The notes under the pieces are model-generated. The model searched no databases, was not told the origin of the DNA, and saw only the letters and a list, made by a program, of their open reading frames with translations. A program made the position numbers and the translations under genes. This document shows positions 16,784-30,119 of a stretch of 54,099 nucleotides of DNA, piece by piece; within the stretch, counting starts at the first letter, position 1, and each line of letters begins with the position of its first letter. The stretch spans positions 1-54,099 of the forward strand of contig NZ_ASSJ01000034.1 of the NCBI RefSeq assembly GCF_000473895.1, in the 5' to 3' direction. Origin of the DNA: Rubidibacter lacunae KORDI 51-2. Lineage in GTDB: Bacteria > Cyanobacteriota > Cyanobacteriia > Cyanobacteriales > Rubidibacteraceae.

Positions 16784-17125
16784 TCATAGGTACTTAACAA
16801 ACTGGTTGCTACCGTCCACTAAGATTGCTTTCGGCTCGATTATCTGGTTAGAATCTCCGAATGCAATGATGATAACTTCCTAACCTGCTTTAATAAGGTG
16901 AGATGCTGCGCCGTTTATACAGATTTTGCCCGAATTTTCCGGGCCTTCTGTAACATAGGTTTCTAACCGATGGCCGGAGGTGTTGCTAACAATAAGCACC
17001 TTTTCATAAAGATCGATGTCCGATTTTTCCAATAAGGTTTTATCAATTGTGATGCCGCCGGTGTTACTGGCATCAGAGTGAGTGACCGTTGCTTTATGAA
17101 TTTTTGAGCGCATAAATGTTCTCAT
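16784..17125 (-). pseudogene. Gene 8: second PanD-like aspartate decarboxylase copy, broken
   Basis: From the ATG at 17125 (GGAGAG at 17133-17138 is its ribosome site) the frame reads MRTFMRSKIHKATVTHSD and follows gene 5 residue for residue. After NGAASHLIKAG it meets an in-frame TAG whose lowest base is 16880. Past the TAG the same frame continues with EVIIIAFGDSN and ends in VDGSNQFVKYL followed by TGA at 16784, the same C-terminus and the same 113-codon length as gene 5. The self-cleavage site is also lost: gene 5 has Gly-Ser before ITID, this copy has Gly-Gly, so no pyruvoyl group can form. Two independent lesions make it very likely a dead duplicate. An 81-residue product could still be made and might bind gene 5 protein, but it cannot decarboxylate by the known mechanism. 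Confidence 0.88.
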
Positions 17126-20404: not shown

Positions 20405-23400
20405 TTAACCAATCATAGAAAGGCGATCGCGCTGTATCATTTCCCCCAAGGCTACGACAATTTTGCGCGGTCCTTGGAAAGGATTGCGCCCGTGAGCCAT
20501 CAACATGTTGTCAAGCATCAATAGATCGCCTTTTTGCCACGTGAATTGACGCGCGCAAGTTTGATAGGCGGCATCAACCTCTTCCAGGACTTCAGGTTCG
20601 ATTTCCGAGCCATCACCGTAGTAAACCTGACGGGGCAAACAATCCTCTCCCAAAAGGGAACGGATGGACGCTTGGGTATTGGGATCGATGTAGGAGAAAT
20701 GGTGGAGTTGAAGCTGATTGAAAAAGACTAAATCCTGCGTATGGGGATGGCGGGCAATTGCTTGACGAACTTGACGCGTGCGCAGGCGACCATTCTCCAA
20801 CCAAGTCCATTCAACGCCTTCGGCTTCGCAGCGACGCTCGACTTCCGCGCGATCGTCAGTTTTAAAGAAATCGCGCCAATCTACATCCAAGCCCGGCACA
20901 AAATTCCGCTCGTACATCAGTTGCTTGGTAGCAAAGCGATCGCGCGTTTCCGGACGCAAAGTCTGGTAGAGCTGCCGACAATTAACAATTGGAGTTTCGC
21001 CCCCCACCGGAGATGGCTGGACGCAGAAGAACCAAATCTTCATCGGCCATTTCTGTAGGTGCGAGCTTTCGTTATGGAACAAAATAGCTCGATCTTCGGG
21101 ATAGGGGGTCGAGCCATACACCTTGCCGCTTACTCCCGTTCGAGGGAGGTCGCCATAGTTGCCAAACAGTTCCGGACAAATTGCCCCAGAAACGGTTTCA
21201 AATGCTCGCGCGTCGGGTAGGTCGAAGCCCCGAAAAAGTAGCGCTCCCGATGTCTGAAGTTGTCGCTCTAGAGCGGCACGATTCTCGGTGGCCCAGGCAG
21301 CTAAATTTGCAGCCGCAACTTGGGGTTCGTAGAGGCCGATGCCGATGGGGTGTTGGCTAAACCGCACCACTTCAGTGGCTGAGACGCGGACGGCTTTGGG
21401 TTTAACTTTCTGAAAGCGCTTGCGTTTCGGTTGAGGCGAGATCGCGCCGGGGCTAAAGCGATCGGTCATGGTTTCTATCGGCGTATCGGGGTTGGCAATT
21501 AGGGCTTGTAAGAGGTCGAGATATTGTTGGGCTAGCTGGTCGACCGTTGCAGTTTCAAAGACATCGGTTTTGTAATTCCATGTCACCGTTAGTCCGGCAG
21601 CAGTTTCTCGCACAAACAGGGCTAAATCGAACTTCGCGGCATGATAATCCGGCTCCGCTGGCACTAGGGTCAGACCCGGCACTTCTAACGCAGGCAGTGG
21701 TGCATTTTGCAGGACGAAGAGCACCTGAAATAAGGGCATCAAGCCATCTTGACGCTCTGGTTTCAGCACATCGACCAACTTTGCAAAGGGGACATCCTGG
21801 CGATCGTAAGCATCGAGGGTGACCGTCCTGATGCGCTGCAGTAGCTCGCGAAAGGTTGGGTTTCCAGAAAGATCTGTTCGCAGTACCAGTAAATTAATAA
21901 AAAAGCCGATCGCGGCTTCGACTTCTTGCCGGTTTCGATTGGCCAAATCGGTGCCCACAGGAATATCGCGCTGGGGCGTATAGCAGCATAACAACAACTT
22001 AAACGCCGACAGCAAGGTCATAAACAACGTTACGTTTGCTTCTCGGCCAAGCTGCGCTATGGAGGTCAGGATTTCTGGTGTGATGACGGTCGCGATTGCC
22101 GCACCGCGATCGCTCCGTTGTGCGGTCCGAGGCTTATCTAAGGGCAGTTGCAATGTTGGCAAATCGCCACCAAGTTGCCGCCGCCAATAGGTAAGCTGTT
22201 CGTGCCAATCCTGCTGGCGCTGCCAAGCAGCAAAGTCGGCATATTGAATCGGCAACTCTGGCAAAATGTTGGCAGCCTCACCCGCCTTAAATGCCGCATA
22301 TAGCTGCGAAATTTCGTGAATTAGAATGCCATAGGACCACCCATCAATAACGATGTGATGGGCGGCGAAGAGAGCCAGATGGCGATCCCCGCTCAAACGC
22401 AAGATCTTCACCCGCAGTAGCGGGCCGGCAGTGAGATCGAAGGGCTCCCGGGTATGAGCCGTGGCAAGTCTTTCTAGCTCCCGCTCCTGGGCGGTGGGGT
22501 TAAGGTTACAGAGATCGATGAGGGGCAGCGCGATCTCCAACTTTTCAGCAATTCGTTGTACGGGGTGGCCCCCTGCCTGGGGAAAAGTCGTCCGTAGAAC
22601 TTCGTGACGGGCCACAATGGCATTCAAGCTTGCCTGCAATGCCGCTAAATCTAGATCGCCCAGAAGTTCCAGGCGTGCGACTTCGTTGTAGGCGCTATTG
22701 CCCGGCGAAAGCCGATCCAACAACCATAAGCGCTCCTGGGCAAAGGACAGCGGTAGAGCCTCGGTGCGATCGCAAGGCTCGATAGCTGCCAGGGCTTGGG
22801 GGGGTTGTGCTGTCTCGATGCGAGTGGAAATCGCAGCAACAGTTGGCGACTCAAAGAAGGCCCGCAGGGATAGCTCGACGGGAAATCGATTACAAATCCG
22901 GGCGACGACCTGAGTTGCCAGCAGCGAATGTCCCCCGAGTTCGAAGAAGCTATTGTGAATGCCAATTTGCTCCACGGGCAAGCTCAGAATTTCAGCAAAA
23001 ATCTGCGCGAGGGCGATTTGGAGTGGCGTGTTGGGGGCAACAAAACTGGTGTCGCTAAGGCGATCGTTTTCGAAGCTCGTTAGCGCGTTGCGATCGAGTT
23101 TCCCGTTCGGAGTTAACGGTAAGGACTCTAACGCAACAAACGCGCTCGGCACCATGTAATCCAGTAAGTTTCGCTTGAGATATGTTCGTAATGCTTCGCT
23201 ATCCAACTCAGCATCGCTAACGATATAAGCCACCAAGCGACGATCTCCCGAACTCACCTCGCGCGCCATGACGGCACATTCCCGAACGTCGGGATGGTTG
23301 CCGAGTGTAGTTTCAATTTCACCGAGCTCTACACGAAAACCGCGAATCTTTACCTGATTATCCCTGCGCCCCAGAAACGCAATCGTGCCATCGGCACGGT

Positions 23401-23743
23401 AACAAGCCCAATCTCCTGTTTTGTAGAGCCGTCCCTCGCCAAAGGGGTTGGCAATGAATTTCTGAGCCGTCATCTCGGGGGAGTAAAGATAGCCTAGAGA
23501 TAAGCCCATGCCGCCAACATACAGCTCGCCAGGTACGCCGATGGGCGTCGGCTGTAAATGCGGATCGAGGATGTAGATTGCGGTATTCGCAATCGGTCGC
23601 CCGATAATTGAGCGATCGAAATGCCTTGCCAAACCTGCTTGCACGGGCAACTGCTCGGTAGGCCAAGACAGGGGTTCGTACCCCAATGCCTTGAGGCGAT
23701 TGTTGAGGAGATTCTGCCTATCTTGCGTGAGGAAAGTATCCAT
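20405..23743 (-). CDS. Gene 6: NRPS, A(back half only)-PCP-C-TauD hydroxylase
   Basis: This 1112-residue protein opens not with a full A domain but with its last part: GRPIANT near residue 47, GELYVGG near 72, then TGDWAC, LGRRDNQVKIRG and NGKLDRN near 215 (motifs A6-A10). Motifs A1-A5, including the ATP-binding STGKPKG loop, are absent. A normal PCP follows (LGGHS near 268), then a C domain with HHIVIDG near 464, then a fused TauD-type Fe(II)/2-oxoglutarate hydroxylase from about 790 to the end, with H-N-E near 889 and MAHGRNPFQGPRK near 1083. The missing A-domain front is at the end of gene 4, beyond gene 5. A longer frame begins at TTG 23767, but the ATG at 23743 has GAGGG seven bases ahead. 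The TauD domain most likely hydroxylates Asp on gene 7. Confidence 0.91.
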   Translation of the reverse strand: MDTFLTQDRQNLLNNRLKALGYEPLSWPTEQLPVQAGLARHFDRSIIGRPIANTAIYILDPHLQPTPIGVPGELYVGGMGLSLGYLYSPEMTAQKFIANPFGEGRLYKTGDWACYRADGTIAFLGRRDNQVKIRGFRVELGEIETTLGNHPDVRECAVMAREVSSGDRRLVAYIVSDAELDSEALRTYLKRNLLDYMVPSAFVALESLPLTPNGKLDRNALTSFENDRLSDTSFVAPNTPLQIALAQIFAEILSLPVEQIGIHNSFFELGGHSLLATQVVARICNRFPVELSLRAFFESPTVAAISTRIETAQPPQALAAIEPCDRTEALPLSFAQERLWLLDRLSPGNSAYNEVARLELLGDLDLAALQASLNAIVARHEVLRTTFPQAGGHPVQRIAEKLEIALPLIDLCNLNPTAQERELERLATAHTREPFDLTAGPLLRVKILRLSGDRHLALFAAHHIVIDGWSYGILIHEISQLYAAFKAGEAANILPELPIQYADFAAWQRQQDWHEQLTYWRRQLGGDLPTLQLPLDKPRTAQRSDRGAAIATVITPEILTSIAQLGREANVTLFMTLLSAFKLLLCCYTPQRDIPVGTDLANRNRQEVEAAIGFFINLLVLRTDLSGNPTFRELLQRIRTVTLDAYDRQDVPFAKLVDVLKPERQDGLMPLFQVLFVLQNAPLPALEVPGLTLVPAEPDYHAAKFDLALFVRETAAGLTVTWNYKTDVFETATVDQLAQQYLDLLQALIANPDTPIETMTDRFSPGAISPQPKRKRFQKVKPKAVRVSATEVVRFSQHPIGIGLYEPQVAAANLAAWATENRAALERQLQTSGALLFRGFDLPDARAFETVSGAICPELFGNYGDLPRTGVSGKVYGSTPYPEDRAILFHNESSHLQKWPMKIWFFCVQPSPVGGETPIVNCRQLYQTLRPETRDRFATKQLMYERNFVPGLDVDWRDFFKTDDRAEVERRCEAEGVEWTWLENGRLRTRQVRQAIARHPHTQDLVFFNQLQLHHFSYIDPNTQASIRSLLGEDCLPRQVYYGDGSEIEPEVLEEVDAAYQTCARQFTWQKGDLLMLDNMLMAHGRNPFQGPRKIVVALGEMIQRDRLSMIG

Positions 23744-23750
23744 AGAGTTG

Positions 23751-23755
23751 CCCTC
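23751..23755 (-). promoter_or_regulatory. Shine-Dalgarno that fixes the start of gene 6
   Basis: GAGGG on the minus strand stands seven bases before ATG 23743. It favours this ATG over the in-frame TTG eight codons upstream. It also shows that the gene with half an A domain has its own translation signal, so it is not just a broken tail of gene 4. Confidence 0.7.
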
Positions 23756-23776
23756 GAATGAATTCAACCCCAGTCC

Positions 23777-24118
23777 TTACAGGTACTTGACAAATTGATT
23801 GTCACCATCGACCAAAATAGCTGTCGGCTCTACCGGCACATTGGAGGTCTCGAACGCCATAATGATGACTTCTTCACCTTTTTTGATTAGGTGGGCAGCA
23901 GCACCATTCATGCAAATGACCCCCGACCCTTCAGGACCTTCAATCGCATAGGTTTCTAATCGTTGTCCTGATGTATTGCTGACAACGAGGACTTTCTCAT
24001 GGAGACAGATATCGGCCTTTTCCAGCAAAGTTTTGTCAATGGTGATGCTGCCCACATAACTAACATCAGCTTGGGTGACGGTTGCTTTGTGGATCTTCGC
24101 TCTCAGTCGCGTTCTCAT
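23777..24118 (-). CDS. Gene 5: PanD-like aspartate 1-decarboxylase (beta-alanine supply)
   Basis: This 113-residue protein is of the pyruvoyl-dependent aspartate 1-decarboxylase family, which makes beta-alanine from L-aspartate. AKIHKATVT carries the lysine equivalent to Lys9 of the E. coli enzyme, YVGSITID holds the Gly-Ser self-cleavage site that yields the pyruvoyl group, RLETYAI has the Arg, Thr and Tyr of the active site, and NGAAAHLI is the conserved binding loop. It is slightly shorter than the E. coli protein (126). The ATG at 24118 has AGGAG six bases upstream (24125-24129). It sits exactly between the two halves of a beta-alanine-type A domain (genes 4 and 6), so pathway-dedicated beta-alanine supply is the best reading. 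A general role in pantothenate synthesis cannot be excluded if the genome lacks another panD. Confidence 0.9.
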   Translation of the reverse strand: MRTRLRAKIHKATVTQADVSYVGSITIDKTLLEKADICLHEKVLVVSNTSGQRLETYAIEGPEGSGVICMNGAAAHLIKKGEEVIIMAFETSNVPVEPTAILVDGDNQFVKYL

Positions 24119-24173
24119 GGCTTTCTCCTACAGTTTGAGATGATGATAAATTGATGTTGGCTCTAGAAACCAT

Positions 24174-27100
24174 CTACAATTGCTGCAGAATGCGAGCAAT
24201 TGTGGCGACTTTCCCGGGTTCGGGCTCATGTTCTTTAAGCAACTTGACAAGTTCGCGAATGGTCGGGGCGCGATATAAGCTCTCCCTAGGTAAAGGGATG
24301 CCGAATAGATAATGTAGGCGTTCGATCGTCAAATTTGAAAGATAATTGTTGCCTCCTACCTCGAAAAAGTTGTCATCGATCCCAACCCATTCGAGCTGAA
24401 GCACGTCTTTCCAGATCTCAGCCAAGGCTTTTTCCTCCGGTTGCTGAGGTTCGGTCAACCGACCCCGAACAGAGGAATCCGGGAACTCAACAGACGCCAA
24501 TTCAATAGGTGATGGATCTACCTTTGAATGCCAAGTTTCGTGATGCGTAACATCTGCCGAAACTTCTGAAGATCCATAGAGATTAATCAAGAAACTATTG
24601 GGGATTTTATCATAGAATTCTTTGCATAAGTTGGTCTCTAGAGTCTCACCACTGGTTACCCAATACTTTAGGTGGGGAAGTTTATCCTTTAACTCACTGC
24701 CAGTCTCTAGTATTGCCCGCAGTAGAGAAGGAACCAGAACGATCCGGGAAATCTGATGGGTGCTTAAAGTATCGATCAGATGTGGGGGATCTTTGACAGT
24801 TTCAGCAGGGATAATTACAGTTGGAATCCCCTGAAGCAAGCCCCCAAAGAATTCCCAAACCGAATCGACGAAACTCAAGGAAGTCTTTTGGCAGCAACGC
24901 TCGTTGGGCTCAAAGGGATAGGTCGTCCACATCCAATACAGTCGATTGACAGTCCCTTGATGGAGTCCTTGCACCCCCTTAGGTTTGCCGGTAGAACCGG
25001 ATGTATAGATGACGTAGGCGACGCTATCTGGCGTTACCTCAGAAGTCGGGTTTTCAGTACTATGGGGCTGAATTTTGGAGGTCCAGTCAGTATCCAAACA
25101 AACCGTCTTGGCCTGATGTTCGGGTAGCCGATCGGCGATCGCATTTTGTGTAATCAAAAATGGTACCTGGCTGTTTGCAAGCATGTATTCCAGACGTTCC
25201 GGGGGATAGCTCGGATCGAGGGGGACGTAAGCCCCACCGGCCTTAAGAATCCCCAGAACACTGACAAGTGCATCGAGAGACCGCTCGACACAAAGGCCTA
25301 CCAGTATCCCGGGTTTTACACCGAATTCTTGCAGGGCATGGGCGAGTCGGTTTGCGCGCGCATTCAGGGTGAAATAGTTAATGGATTCAGCACCATAGAT
25401 TGCCGCGATCGCTTCTGGAGTGCGATCCGCCTGATATTCAAATAATTGGTGAATGCAGTTGTCTAGGGGGTAATCGACAGCTGTATTATTCCAGTCCGTG
25501 AGAATTTGTTGGCGCTCCCGGGAAGTCAGCATGGGTAGCGTTGCCACCGGTTGGCGAACATCTGCCACCATACTGCGAAGGAGCATTTCAAAATGGGTGG
25601 CCATGCGCGCGATGGTTTCGGCAGTAAAGAGTTCGCTGTCATATTCCCAACGCCCGGAAAACCCGCGATCGCCCTCTTGCAAGGAAAGGGTTACGTCAAA
25701 CTTGGCAGCGACAGTTTCGACCTCCAGGGGCGTGAGAGTAATCCCTTCAAGTTCTAGGGATGCTGTCGGGACGTTTTGCAAAATAAACATCACCTGGAAT
25801 AGCGGCGTGTGAGCCAAGGTGCGTTCGGCAGCGACGGCTTCAATAATCCGCTCGAAGGGTACATCCTGGTGGGCGTAAGCATCTAATGCCGTGTGGCGCA
25901 CTTGCTGTAACAAATCGGCGACCGTCGCAGTTGGATCGATCGTGGTACGCAAGGCCAAGGTATTCACGAAAAAGCCAATTAGCCCCTCGACTTCGGGATG
26001 ATTTCGATTTGCGATTGGGCTGCCGACGACGATATCTTGCTGTGCACTGTAACGAGCGAGTAAAAGCTGGAATGCAGTCAAGAGCACCATGAATGGGGTG
26101 ACTTCTTGCTGCTGGGCAAGGGTCTTGACGGCGGCGGTTAATTCTGGCGGGAGTGCGATATTTTGAACTCGGCCTTGGAACGATCGCCGTGCTGGACGAG
26201 GATAATCGGTGGGCAATTCTAATAGGGCTGGCACCCCAGCAAGCTGTTGCTGCCAATAGTTCAACTGCCGTTCTAAGACTTCTCCCTCTAGCCATTGGCG
26301 CTGCCAGACACCGTAGTCAGCGTACTGAACGGGCAAAGGAGCTAGCTCCGTCGACTCTCCCGTGCGATAGCCCTGATAAAGGGTAATGATTTCGCGAATG
26401 AAAATCCCCGAGGACCAACCATCACTGATGATGTGGTGCATCACCACCGACAAAATATTTTCGTTGGGCGCAAGCTGTATTACTTTGACGCGCAGGAGCG
26501 GACCAGTGGCCAGGTCGAACGGTTGTTGAGTTTGGCGAATTAACCAGTCTTCTGGGATGCAATCGAGGTCGACAGCGCTAACAATTTCCAGGGGAACATG
26601 GAGATGTGGCAGCACGCACTGTACGGCGCTGTCGCTGCCATCCCTCAGGGGGAAATAGGTCCGTAAGCTCTCATGACGAGCGACTAGCGCATCAAGGGCC
26701 TGCTGCATGGCATCAAGATCCGCAACGCCCTCAATCCGGAAGCTGCCAGGGATGTTGTAGGTAGCCGAGCCGCCTTCGAAACGATCCAAAAACCACAGAC
26801 GCTGCTGGGCAAACGATAGCGGTAGATTCGCCGGATCCCGTTCGGTGGCAGGCAGGGGAACGATCGCGGGCAGGGCTTGTCTGGCAGTTTGGCTTTGCTC
26901 TAAAGCGGCGATCGCTCGATCCAAATCCGCAACCGTGGTTGCTTCGAACAGTACCTTGAGGGGAATCTCGACACCGAAGGCCTGCCGCAGGCGCGAGATC
27001 AATTGGGTCGCAAGTAGGGAATGGCCGCCAAGATCGAAGAAGTTGGCGTGCAGACCCACGCGCTCCGGTGGCAAATCAAGAACCGCAGCAAACTGCGCCG

Positions 27101-30100
27101 CGATCGTCTGTTGGCGCTGGGTTTCTGGGACTACGTAGGGTTGGTTAGCGGTTAGCGCTTCCCCAGAAGGGACGGGCAGTGCTTTGCGATCGATTTTGCG
27201 GTTGGGGGTGAGGGGAAAGTCTGGCAGCCAGGTAAACCAAGCGGGAATCATATACTCCGGGAGTTGCTGGCGCAGCCATTGTTGCAATTCCGTGGCGGGC
27301 AACTCGGTCTCCCCTTGCAGGTAAGCCACGAGGGTGTCGCCATGGGCACTGACGACACCCTGAGCGATCGCGGGATGGTCGTGCAAGCAGGCTTCAATTT
27401 CTCCCAGCTCGATGCGGAAACCCCGGACTTTTACTTGGTAATCGATGCGTCCCAAATGTTGCAGTGTGCCGTCGGTACGGTAGCAAGCTAGGTCGCCAGT
27501 GCGATACATGCGCGCGCCGGGCTCGGTCGCAAACGGATCGGGCAAGAAGCGCTCCGCCGTCAAGCCCGCCCGCCCCTGATACCCCCGCGCCAACCCCAGG
27601 CCGCCGATAAATAACTCCCCGGCAACCCCAACGGGAGCTGGTTGCAACTGGGTGTCGAGGACGTAGGTTTGAGTGTTGGCAATTGGTCGTCCGATGGCAA
27701 CGGATGCGTCGTTTTGTATCTGCTGCTGCGCCGACCAAATCGTGGTTTCTGTGGGGCCGTATAGGTTCCACAACTCGGAGCCACGATCGGTCAGGGCGGC
27801 GGCCAAGTCCGGGGGCAATGCCTCGCCACCGCAAAGAATTTTCAGTCCCGGCTGCCCGTCCCAACCCGAGGCCAACAGCAAGCGCCACGAGGCGGGGGTT
27901 GCCTGCATCATTGTGGCTCGCTGTAGCAGTTGGGCGAGCTGCGCGCCATCGAGGGTAGTTTCGTGGCTGGCAAAGAGCAGCGTCGCGCCGTAGGTCAGGG
28001 GCAATAATAATTCCAGAACGGCGATGTCGAAAGACAACGATGTGACCGCCAGCAATGTGTCTTGGGGGGTAATGCCTGGCGATCGCCCGTGGGCGTTGAG
28101 GAAGTTGGCGACGGCTTGGTGGGGGATTTGGACGCCTTTGGGTTTGCCAGTGGAGCCGGACGTGTAGATCAGGTAGGCCAGTTGGGCGGGGTGGGGTGTC
28201 TGAGCGGGGTTTTCCGCCGATTGCTGGGCAATCGCATCTGTCTCGGCAAGCAGGTCGATAACGACAGGTACGCCAGCCGCCAGGGCCATCTGGGCCAAAT
28301 CGTCATTCCCTCGGACGATCGCGAGATCTGCTCCCGCATCAGTTAGGGCGTATTGCAAGCGCTCGGCAGGGTAGGCTGGGTCGAGGGGAATGTAGGCTCC
28401 GCCAGCTTTCAGGACCGCCAACAGTGCGATAAGGGTTTCGGCGGTGCGATCGAGCAGCAGACCGATGCGGGTTTCGGGTTCGACCCCGCGCGCGCGTAGA
28501 TACGCAGCCAGGCGATTGGCTCGGGCATTAAGCTCGGCGTAGGTGTAGCGTCGATCTTCGAACTCCAACGCGATCGCCTCTGGGGTCCGAGCCACCTGCG
28601 CTTCAAAGCCACCATGCATGGTGTGCCAATTCGGCAACGGCGTTTGCGTCGCGTTCCAATCCCGAATTCGCTGCCGTTCGTCTCTGTTCAGCAGCGGCAA
28701 ACGATCGATGGGCGTGTCGGGCTCAGCGATCGCGGCTGCCAATAGCCCTTGCCAATGGCGCGCCCAGCGTTCGACGGTGGTCGCATCGAAGAGATCGCAG
28801 TTGTAAACAAAGGTGCCCTGCACCCCTTGGGAACTCTCAAACAGATCCAAAAAGAGATCGAATTGGGTGGCGCCCAAGTTTGAGGCCAGAGGTGTAATTT
28901 CGAGATCCCCAGCGGAAAACGGTTGGTGGGGATCGGCCTGCAAACCAAACATCACCTGCAATAGCGGCGCGTGACTCAACGATCTCTCCGGGGCCAAGAC
29001 CTCAATTAGTTTCTCGAAGGGCAAATCTTGGCGATCGCTCGCTGCCGTTACCACCGACCGCACTTCGTCGAGGAGTTGACGGAAGCTCCATTGGGGCTGC
29101 AGCCGCACTCGCAGTGCCAGGGTGTTGATTAAAACGCCCACGAATCCTTCCGTTTGCACGCGGTTGCGATTGGCGACGGGCGTTCCCACCAGCAAATCCT
29201 GACGACCCGTGTAGCGGTAGAGCCAGGCAAAGTAGGCGGCCAAGCCGACCATGAACGTCGTGGCTTGGCTCTGGCGGCTGAAGGTTTGCAGGTGTTGGAC
29301 CAGTTCGCCATCGAGGCGCACGGCCACGCGATCGCCGCGGCCGCTCTGGCGTGCCGGACGGGGGCGATCGACGGGCAAATCCAGCACTTCTGGCACGTCC
29401 CGCAACTGCTCCTGCCAAAAATCGAGCAGTCCAGTCAACTTCTCGCCCTGCAGTTGTTCGCGCTGCCAAACGGCATAGTCGGCGTATTGGATAGCGAGGG
29501 ATGGCAAGCTGGCGGGCTGCGATCGTACCTGGGCTTCGTAAAGCTGGACCAGCTCGCGAATTAAAACGCCCAAGGACCAACCATCGGCAATGATGTGATG
29601 GATGTTGAATAGCAGGACGTGGTATTCCGGGGCCAGGCGTAACAGCGTCGCGCGCAGCAACGGCCCGTAGGCCAAGTCGAAGGGTTCCCGCGCCGCTGCG
29701 ACGGCCAGCCGCTCGACTTCGGCATCCCGAACGGCCCCATCCAAGTGCTGCAGATCTGTCACCGGCAAATCGATTTCCAATTCCGGCAAAATCTTTTGCA
29801 GGGGTTCGCTCGCGGCATTCGGGACAAAGACCGTCCGTAGGGGCTCGTGGCGATCGCCCAAGGCCTGGAAGCTTTGGAGTAAGGCCTCTACCTGCAGCGG
29901 TCCCGCAAGACGCACGGCCGCCGGAACGTTGTAAACGGGACTATCCGGATCTAGCTCGTGCAACCACCACAACCGTTGCTGGGCAAAAGATACCGGTAGC
30001 GGTTGCTCCCGAGACTGGGTGGGGATAGCTGGCTTAGTGGGATTTTTCCGCACGCGCTTGGTCAAGCGCGCCAGTTGCTCGGGGGAGAGTTGGGAAATCC

Positions 30101-30119
30101 GCTTGGCAAAATCGGTCAT
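24174..30119 (-). CDS. Gene 4: NRPS, C-A(Gly)-PCP-C-A(front half only, beta-Ala type)-PCP lacking Ser
   Basis: This is a 1981-residue protein. Module 1: C with HHIIADG near 176; A with STGKPKG near 653 and pocket D-I-L-Q-L-G-L-I-W (glycine); PCP LGGHS near 1030. Module 2: C with HHIISDG near 1229; an A domain with A1-A5 present (STGKPKG near 1706, SFVDSVWEFF near 1750, LYGSSEVSADV near 1850), whose pocket V-D-W-V-V-S-L-A-D closely follows the beta-alanine signature. The sequence then jumps to a carrier-like end: motifs A6-A10 are missing, and the carrier motif reads DDNFFEVGGNNYLS near 1922, Asn in place of the phosphopantetheine serine. So module 2 has no functional carrier here and half an A domain; the complementary pieces are in gene 6. 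The ATG overlaps the gene 3 stop (ATGA). Confidence 0.92.
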   Translation of the reverse strand: MTDFAKRISQLSPEQLARLTKRVRKNPTKPAIPTQSREQPLPVSFAQQRLWWLHELDPDSPVYNVPAAVRLAGPLQVEALLQSFQALGDRHEPLRTVFVPNAASEPLQKILPELEIDLPVTDLQHLDGAVRDAEVERLAVAAAREPFDLAYGPLLRATLLRLAPEYHVLLFNIHHIIADGWSLGVLIRELVQLYEAQVRSQPASLPSLAIQYADYAVWQREQLQGEKLTGLLDFWQEQLRDVPEVLDLPVDRPRPARQSGRGDRVAVRLDGELVQHLQTFSRQSQATTFMVGLAAYFAWLYRYTGRQDLLVGTPVANRNRVQTEGFVGVLINTLALRVRLQPQWSFRQLLDEVRSVVTAASDRQDLPFEKLIEVLAPERSLSHAPLLQVMFGLQADPHQPFSAGDLEITPLASNLGATQFDLFLDLFESSQGVQGTFVYNCDLFDATTVERWARHWQGLLAAAIAEPDTPIDRLPLLNRDERQRIRDWNATQTPLPNWHTMHGGFEAQVARTPEAIALEFEDRRYTYAELNARANRLAAYLRARGVEPETRIGLLLDRTAETLIALLAVLKAGGAYIPLDPAYPAERLQYALTDAGADLAIVRGNDDLAQMALAAGVPVVIDLLAETDAIAQQSAENPAQTPHPAQLAYLIYTSGSTGKPKGVQIPHQAVANFLNAHGRSPGITPQDTLLAVTSLSFDIAVLELLLPLTYGATLLFASHETTLDGAQLAQLLQRATMMQATPASWRLLLASGWDGQPGLKILCGGEALPPDLAAALTDRGSELWNLYGPTETTIWSAQQQIQNDASVAIGRPIANTQTYVLDTQLQPAPVGVAGELFIGGLGLARGYQGRAGLTAERFLPDPFATEPGARMYRTGDLACYRTDGTLQHLGRIDYQVKVRGFRIELGEIEACLHDHPAIAQGVVSAHGDTLVAYLQGETELPATELQQWLRQQLPEYMIPAWFTWLPDFPLTPNRKIDRKALPVPSGEALTANQPYVVPETQRQQTIAAQFAAVLDLPPERVGLHANFFDLGGHSLLATQLISRLRQAFGVEIPLKVLFEATTVADLDRAIAALEQSQTARQALPAIVPLPATERDPANLPLSFAQQRLWFLDRFEGGSATYNIPGSFRIEGVADLDAMQQALDALVARHESLRTYFPLRDGSDSAVQCVLPHLHVPLEIVSAVDLDCIPEDWLIRQTQQPFDLATGPLLRVKVIQLAPNENILSVVMHHIISDGWSSGIFIREIITLYQGYRTGESTELAPLPVQYADYGVWQRQWLEGEVLERQLNYWQQQLAGVPALLELPTDYPRPARRSFQGRVQNIALPPELTAAVKTLAQQQEVTPFMVLLTAFQLLLARYSAQQDIVVGSPIANRNHPEVEGLIGFFVNTLALRTTIDPTATVADLLQQVRHTALDAYAHQDVPFERIIEAVAAERTLAHTPLFQVMFILQNVPTASLELEGITLTPLEVETVAAKFDVTLSLQEGDRGFSGRWEYDSELFTAETIARMATHFEMLLRSMVADVRQPVATLPMLTSRERQQILTDWNNTAVDYPLDNCIHQLFEYQADRTPEAIAAIYGAESINYFTLNARANRLAHALQEFGVKPGILVGLCVERSLDALVSVLGILKAGGAYVPLDPSYPPERLEYMLANSQVPFLITQNAIADRLPEHQAKTVCLDTDWTSKIQPHSTENPTSEVTPDSVAYVIYTSGSTGKPKGVQGLHQGTVNRLYWMWTTYPFEPNERCCQKTSLSFVDSVWEFFGGLLQGIPTVIIPAETVKDPPHLIDTLSTHQISRIVLVPSLLRAILETGSELKDKLPHLKYWVTSGETLETNLCKEFYDKIPNSFLINLYGSSEVSADVTHHETWHSKVDPSPIELASVEFPDSSVRGRLTEPQQPEEKALAEIWKDVLQLEWVGIDDNFFEVGGNNYLSNLTIERLHYLFGIPLPRESLYRAPTIRELVKLLKEHEPEPGKVATIARILQQL

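Follow-up and report, generated by a model that had tools for sequence, protein, structure and literature searches.

The 54,099-nucleotide contig NZ_ASSJ01000034.1 of the marine cyanobacterium Rubidibacter lacunae KORDI 51-2, analyzed here over its whole length and referred to as the window, carries a nonribosomal peptide synthetase (NRPS) and polyketide synthase (PKS) assembly line in which a single adenylation (A) domain is spread over two neighboring genes. Motifs A1 to A5 lie at the end of gene 4 (30119-24174) and the G-motif to A10 at the start of gene 6 (23743-20405, with 23767 as a less likely start), without loss of a motif; between them lies gene 5, or pan1 (24118-23777), which encodes a PanD-like protein. 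The NRPS and PKS genes are all on the minus strand and form one assembly line. An earlier note on this DNA had described the two partial A domains, a beta-alanine-like pocket in gene 4, the PanD-like gene between the halves and a working-type carrier in gene 6, and each of these was borne out on this strand and at these coordinates.

Organization of the split module

Gene 4 encodes, in order, condensation (C), A, carrier (T) and C domains, the N-terminal half (N half) of a second A domain and a further carrier-like domain, T0. The C domain of the split module (residues 1099 to 1540; 25500..26825; PF00668) is nearer to its counterpart in the cyanochelin B cluster than to that of a second split case, contig G571:C400 (hereafter G571), both of which are described below. 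The N half (residues 1545 to 1865; 24525..25487) was identified by motifs, AlphaFold2 fold and PDB matches. It contains A3 (YTSGSTGKPKG), A4 (FVDSVWE) and A5 (NLYGSSE), followed by DNFFEVGGNNYL; A1 and A2 were identified by eye in the alignment only. The pocket letters, computed by motif on positions that presumably correspond to the GrsA code, read VDWVVSLAD, and we take the pattern VDW..SLAD to mean beta-alanine.

The Pfam PP-binding profile matches two stretches of gene 4. T0 (about residues 1891 to 1957; 24249..24449; Pfam PP-binding and phmmer) reads GG-N-N where carriers have GG-H-S or GG-D-S, and the T0 of G571 reads GGDK. Because the phosphopantetheine serine is replaced, T0 is predicted to be incapable of being charged. 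The C-terminal tail of gene 4 (24177..24248; PGKVATIARILQQL, and PGKAATIARLLKQI in G571) is a possible docking element. The N half is thus followed by T0, a stop, the separate pan1 (23777..24118), a new start and a leader, and the chain is not continuous. For gene 6, the ATG at 23743 is a more likely start than the TTG at 23767, because the G571 homolog starts there. The leader from this ATG (23618..23743; residues 9 to 50 of the listed open reading frame) was delimited by alignment with G571. The C-terminal half of the A domain (C half; residues 51 to 240; 23048..23617), supported by Pfam, motifs, AlphaFold2 and PDB matches, contains the G-motif (IIGRPI) and A6 to A10 (A10, NGKLDR). The carrier that follows (22808..23020; PF00550, FFELGGHSL) has an intact GGHS and would be the one to be loaded, and the rest of gene 6 (20405..22759) encodes a C domain (PF00668) and a fused TauD-type hydroxylase (PF02668).

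AlphaFold2 models were built with only the window sequences in the alignment. Predicted local distance difference test (pLDDT) values were mostly 80 to 98 for the N half and under 60 for T0; for the C half with its carrier they were mostly 70 to 95, with dips near 50 and a low leader. The N half model matched NRPS A domains in the PDB at Z scores of 37 to 41 (e.g., 1amu, 307 residues aligned, 2.0 Å); its end point is that of the sequence alignment (GrsA 19 to 333), the structural range extending into a low-confidence tail. The C half model matched GrsA 354 to 530 (Z 17.8, 161 residues aligned) with a root mean square deviation of 11.5 Å, which we put down to the orientation of the C-terminal subdomain (A_sub) being free in the model. 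The two halves are complementary parts of one A domain. A sequence search of the PDB matched general A domains and gave no beta-alanine match.

The same arrangement in a second genome

A search of 388 genomes of the order found the N half's nearest relative on G571, in a genome assigned to another family. The upstream part of this contig encodes an acyl carrier protein, a C domain, an A-domain N half and a serine-less carrier (GGDK), and panD follows; the downstream gene has a similar leader, the G-motif, A6 to A10, a normal carrier, a C domain and the first part of the following A domain. The G571 assembly line differs from that of the window, yet the cut and the arrangement of serine-less carrier, PanD and leader are identical. 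Identity between the two is 64% for the N half, 62% for the C half and 72% for PanD, and 15 of the 42 leader residues are common to both. In a comparison of 11 carriers, the T0 domains of the window and G571 were each other's best hit (46% over 80 residues). Motifs A3 to A10 are present in both lineages, and the G571 pocket reads IDWVVSLAD.

A tree of N halves (64 rows, selected by motif anchors and a length filter that left out the A domains leading to loci L073 and L074) placed the window and G571 as sisters (support 100/98) within a 24-row clade (100/100). Of the 22 further rows in this clade, 21 have the C-half anchor in the same open frame, 228 to 244 residues on; that of L076_3 was not recovered.

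The PanD alignment was searched in overlapping sets of 388 genomes of the order, 27 of the G571 family, 388 of the class, 217 of the G663 family and further sets of 14 and 20 genomes. At an E value of ≤1e-36, 12 distinct places besides the window were found; the surroundings of all 12 were inspected, and a split A domain was present at one of them (G571). The surrounding sequence was limited for G984 (a 5-kb contig) and, because of nearby contig ends, on one side of G426 (about 0.9 kb) and of G491 (about 2 kb). With a single PanD sequence as query (E ≤ 1e-25), 40 of 386 genomes across the phylum had matches, the host included, and no NRPS was seen at three of these matches inspected as 3.3-kb loci. 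When contigs were scanned with two patterns common to ordinary PanDs, NRPS genes lay near 3 of the 81 loci listed (80 plus one viral) and none had a split A domain, an absence that means little with such patterns; the scan of viral contigs gave one PanD only. The N-half search matched 21 of the 388 genomes, with at most five candidates scored per genome, so that split cases may be missed, and no panD lay within the fetched stretches at 20 of the 21 other related A-domain places (G203 left out). PanD genes were seen near NRPS genes with unsplit A domains in Williamsia, Gordonia and Mycolicibacterium (L120, L129 and L163), and the PanD of the viral scan lies on an IMG/VR contig (L170, 5001-5339; 58% identical to the query).

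Constraint on the two halves

The proportion of synonymous differences (pS) between the window and G571 is 0.71 to 0.83 over the parts compared, which is saturated or nearly so. The proportion of nonsynonymous differences (pN) is far lower in the N half (pS 0.83, pN 0.22, pN/pS 0.27, bootstrap range 0.22 to 0.32) and in the C half (pS 0.79, pN 0.23, pN/pS 0.30, 0.23 to 0.37), and PanD has a pN of 0.15 and a pN/pS of 0.20 with an upper bootstrap bound of 0.30. T0 (pN 0.36, pN/pS 0.47, 0.35 to 0.63) and the gene 6 leader (pN 0.43, pN/pS 0.53, 0.35 to 0.76) have higher ratios; the normal gene 6 carrier has a pN/pS of 0.52, so the constraint on T0 is about equal to that on a working carrier. Because the cut, T0 and the leader are common to both lineages, the cut predates the constraint measured on both halves. 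Both halves have thus stayed under selection after the cut, and it is chiefly this that speaks against a dead relic.

An intact counterpart and the mosaic origin of the block

The available part of the cyanochelin B report gives the module order as acyl-methylthiazoline, Phe, Gly, beta-OH-Asp, Ser, beta-OH-Asp and ethanolamine (PMC12628792). We extracted pocket letters in the same way from the window and from the first four modules of this cluster in Leptolyngbya NIES-3755 (AP017310.1). The latter read DLYNLSLIW, DAWTIAAVC, DILQLGLIW and DLTKIGHVG, corresponding by module order to Cys, Phe, Gly and beta-OH-Asp. The single-chain protein BAU16013 of this cluster is uninterrupted across the cut point, which falls inside its Gly module: gene 4 residues 5 to 1861 align to its residues 4 to 1842 and gene 6 residues 51 to 1110 to its residues 1848 to 2922 (52% identical), with five residues between the aligned ends. 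By this alignment, the cut lies between A5 and the G-motif, and hardly any sequence is lost at it.

Both lines share a fatty acyl-AMP ligase (FAAL)/PKS start, a Cys module, fused and free beta-hydroxylases, Asp modules and a terminal reductase in matching order. The third module is a single, Gly-type chain in cyanochelin B, whereas that of the window is split and beta-alanine-like and has PanD; likewise, positions 2 and 3 are Phe and Gly in cyanochelin B, whereas in the window they have a Gly-type and a beta-alanine-like code, respectively. The window is accordingly classed by sequence as a cyanochelin-B-type line with a different predicted product. The words alanine and decarboxylase are not mentioned in the main text of the cyanochelin B paper (PMC12628792).

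Positions that the window shares with cyanochelin B but not with G571, or the reverse, reveal a mosaic. The flanking C domains favor cyanochelin B (144 versus 87 sites; for the C domain of the split module, 79 versus 44). G571 is favored in the early N half (22 versus 8, P = 0.00028), in the part of the N half with the pocket (70 versus 9, P = 4e-16) and from A6 to A8 (21 versus 4, P = 9e-6); the signal is weak from A8 to A10 (14 versus 7 for G571, P = 0.018), and the gene 6 carrier is even (5 versus 4 for cyanochelin B, P = 0.73). Over gene 6 residues 50 to 150, G571 is the best match (73.7%; next, 69.7%). The GC content is 0.49 at 23.6 to 25.6 kb versus 0.61 at 26.6 to 30.1 kb. In our reading, a foreign block that begins early in the A domain and ends around A8 probably entered a cyanochelin-type line. 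Speaking against a simple mosaic, the pocket signal comes in part from the differing substrate. According to the available part of one study, natural NRPS swaps change much of A_core and mostly keep A_sub (PMC8097286), and a foreign block ending near A8 fits such swaps; the recombined domains described there are continuous, whereas the window has two genes and a supply gene.

PanD and the predicted substrate

The pan1 product covers positions 3 to 114 of the 115-position PF02261 profile (E = 5.4e-40). Gly-Ser is the PanD self-cleavage site, and the YVGS sequence is kept in pan1 and in the G571 PanD and lost in panD2, a second copy beside gene 7 (17125-16787). The latter is 73% identical to pan1 and has an in-frame TAG, a change of the cleavage-site Ser to Gly and a branch of 0.42 versus 0.019 for pan1. 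It is a decayed duplicate and, as such, an example of loss within the cluster. The candidate that the gene 7 carrier had been copied along with panD2 was rejected, its nearest relative being a cyanochelin carrier (59%).

In a PanD tree (114 columns; support below 80 at 26 of the 56 inner branches), the PanDs pan1, pan2 and that of G571 form a clade (Shimodaira-Hasegawa-like approximate likelihood ratio, 97) among PanDs of other phyla, separate from the two other PanDs of the host and from a CrpG-like cyanobacterial clade. The host's own PanD was rejected as the source of pan1 (42 to 46% identity, other clade). We infer that the beta-alanine supply was acquired separately. A CrpG-like PanD on plasmid pNsp_c of Nostoc ATCC 53789, so labeled after the cryptophycin cluster, also lies in a cyanobacterial NRPS/PKS cluster and is 58% identical to pan1, but it belongs to the separate clade and is not between two A halves. 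A CrpG-like relative in a cryptophycin-like cluster may use methylated Asp, and pan1 may have a substrate other than Asp.

The string VDWVISLAD was not found in the open-license literature searched; it occurs in intact A domains of other cyanobacteria. Loci L070 to L089 hold intact VDW(V/I)(V/I)SLAD A domains from many cyanobacteria, several of them near DLYN.. (Cys-type) and DLTK.. (Asp-type) A domains, and beta-alanine-like modules look common in cyanochelin-like lines. Elsewhere in the host genome, contig C90 (L044, 2-3430) carries an NRPS end with two thioesterase-like parts and an A fragment, NLYGSTEITADAT; a PanD about 450 bases past this fragment is 88% identical to the PanD on contig C79.

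The assembly line and host genome

The host genome comprises 4,153,658 bases in 99 contigs, of which the window is one entire contig; the available part of its report describes a 454 draft assembly (PMC3910548). Upstream of gene 4 lie a FAAL/PKS gene (53714-43818), a PKS gene with a luciferase-like domain (43811-37308) and a gene for a ketosynthase, C, A, methyltransferase and T (37366-30116). Gene 6 is followed by gene 7 (20365-17186), panD2, gene 8 (16655-10578), a free TauD gene (10581-9493), gene 9 (9492-4984) and gene 10, which has a terminal reductase-type domain (5083-590), all of them on the minus strand. Pocket letters in module order are DLYNMSLIW, DILQLGLIW, VDWVVSLAD (split), DLTKIGHVG, DILQLGLIW, DLTKIGHVG and DAWQFGLID. 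The residues predicted over 590-54099, on code meanings that are in part our assumption, are Cys, Gly, beta-Ala, OH-Asp, Gly, OH-Asp and a Gln-type residue, with reductive release, as in a cyanochelin-B-like siderophore line. The serine-less carrier of gene 4, the decayed panD2 (16787-17125) and the intact cyanochelin B counterpart are features beyond those of the earlier note.

Discussion

Our results favor, with a probability of roughly 0.7, the interpretation that a functional beta-alanine A domain is assembled in trans from the two halves. The part with the P-loop and the substrate pocket would come from gene 4, and gene 6 would bring in the carrier to be loaded, together with the barrel subdomain and the mobile A_sub, which holds the A10 lysine; the PanD encoded between them would supply beta-alanine. 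T0, the tail behind it and the leader of gene 6 may be adaptors that hold the halves together. The split would predate the divergence of the Rubidibacter and G571 copies, and the set would have been recombined into a cyanochelin-B-type line, where it replaced another A domain, probably a Gly-type one. Trans assembly is favored because the cut is present in a second lineage, purifying selection has acted, A3 to A10 are present and the PanD cleavage site is kept. It is also favored because the G-motif is a working swap border and corallorazine offers a precedent. The earlier note had regarded a working split as very unusual since the cut falls inside the N-terminal domain. The position is correct, but the cut is at the G-motif, which is the end of the flavodoxin-like subdomain and, in the available part of one study, the cut point in engineered A-subdomain swaps (PMC10212144).

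The closest precedent is corallorazine. According to the available part of its report, the Gly A domain of Crz1/Crz2 is encoded on two neighboring genes, with the cut before A9 and with A9 and A10 on the second gene, and is active only when both proteins are mixed (PMC11342130). The likeness lies in one A domain divided over two adjacent genes. That part of the report describes a methyltransferase in the A domain and no gene between the halves, and reports no serine-less carrier; the window is cut between A5 and the G-motif, inside A_core and not between A8 and A9, and has panD in the gap. The window split is thus a different variant. In interrupted A domains, by the available part of another report, a methyltransferase or other domain is tolerated between motifs (PMC8097286); there the insert is in frame within one chain, whereas in the window the chain ends and a new one starts. 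Within the open-license literature, we found no report of a cut at this position with PanD between the halves and no split A domain other than that of corallorazine, papers on a "truncated A domain" being outside the comparison; the search for PanD in NRPS clusters gave nothing useful.

The earlier note had set against trans assembly the possibility that the module is a relic of unequal recombination and is skipped. The split module would then be dead, the C domain of gene 6 would accept the chain from the first-module carrier of gene 4, and the product would lack the residue. One carrier without serine, a second, decayed panD in the cluster and the mosaic origin of the block are all in keeping with this. 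However, both halves have been constrained after the cut at saturated synonymous divergence, the cut is kept in a second lineage and the catalytic motifs are intact in both, and we regard a relic as unlikely. The recombination part of that proposal stands to the extent that foreign sequence appears to have entered a cyanochelin-type line, but the incoming part looks like an already split set. It is also conceivable that both halves are used, but not together, the gene 6 half and carrier relying on a different A domain or N half of the line and the gene 4 half having some other role. The C half alone has no signal of close kinship to one partner and its A8-A10 part is not closest to G571, which would agree with separate use; the halves are nevertheless adjacent in both lineages, their motifs fit together with hardly any sequence lost or overlapping and no other A domain without a C half was seen in the window, which makes this very improbable. 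NRPS repeats are prone to misassembly. A wrong joining of such repeats in the 99-contig 454 assembly (PMC3910548), with an intact A domain in reality, would account for the layout, but the same layout occurs in an unrelated assembly at 62 to 72% protein identity of the halves and PanD, and two full open frames flank a full gene, so that hardly any weight is left for this explanation. A sequencing artifact was rejected because G571 agrees, and a simple frameshift was rejected because a whole gene lies between the halves.

Several points weigh against trans assembly of a self-supplied A domain. There are two examples only, and G571 is a 6.9-kb contig; because it is a small contig in a genome that is 82% complete and in 610 contigs, its family assignment could be a binning error. 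A quick tree of the C halves gave no resolution, the grouping of the window and G571 C halves was not rejected (approximately unbiased test, P = 0.58), which falls short of proof, and over gene 6 residues 151 to 245 (A8 to A10) G571 ranked only fourth after the window itself. This raises the possibility that the two C halves do not have a wholly common history. The host carries two other PanD genes, and related intact A domains occur without a nearby panD (20 fetched stretches), so that such modules can do without a local PanD. T0 was not resolved in the AlphaFold2 model, and T0 and the leader could be tolerated leftovers. Finally, because pN/pS is an average, a recent loss of function in one lineage would be compatible with the values obtained.

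A broader reading is that the arrangement of an A-domain N half with pseudocarrier, panD and a leader with the C half is a mobile, self-supplying cassette that moves between unrelated lines and converts a module to beta-alanine, the serine-less carrier and the leader forming a new docking pair. We put this forward tentatively, at somewhat less than even odds; it is weakened because G571 is not the best match for A8 to A10 and because not every fetched relative is in the tree.

If trans assembly is true, the window would provide a second natural split A domain, divided within A_core at the engineered swap border and retained at saturated synonymous divergence, and show that two chains can make up A_core itself. 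As a natural plug-in, it would alter the specificity of an NRPS and the supply of the precursor at once, and would allow a direct test of whether a serine-less carrier is reused as a docking part.

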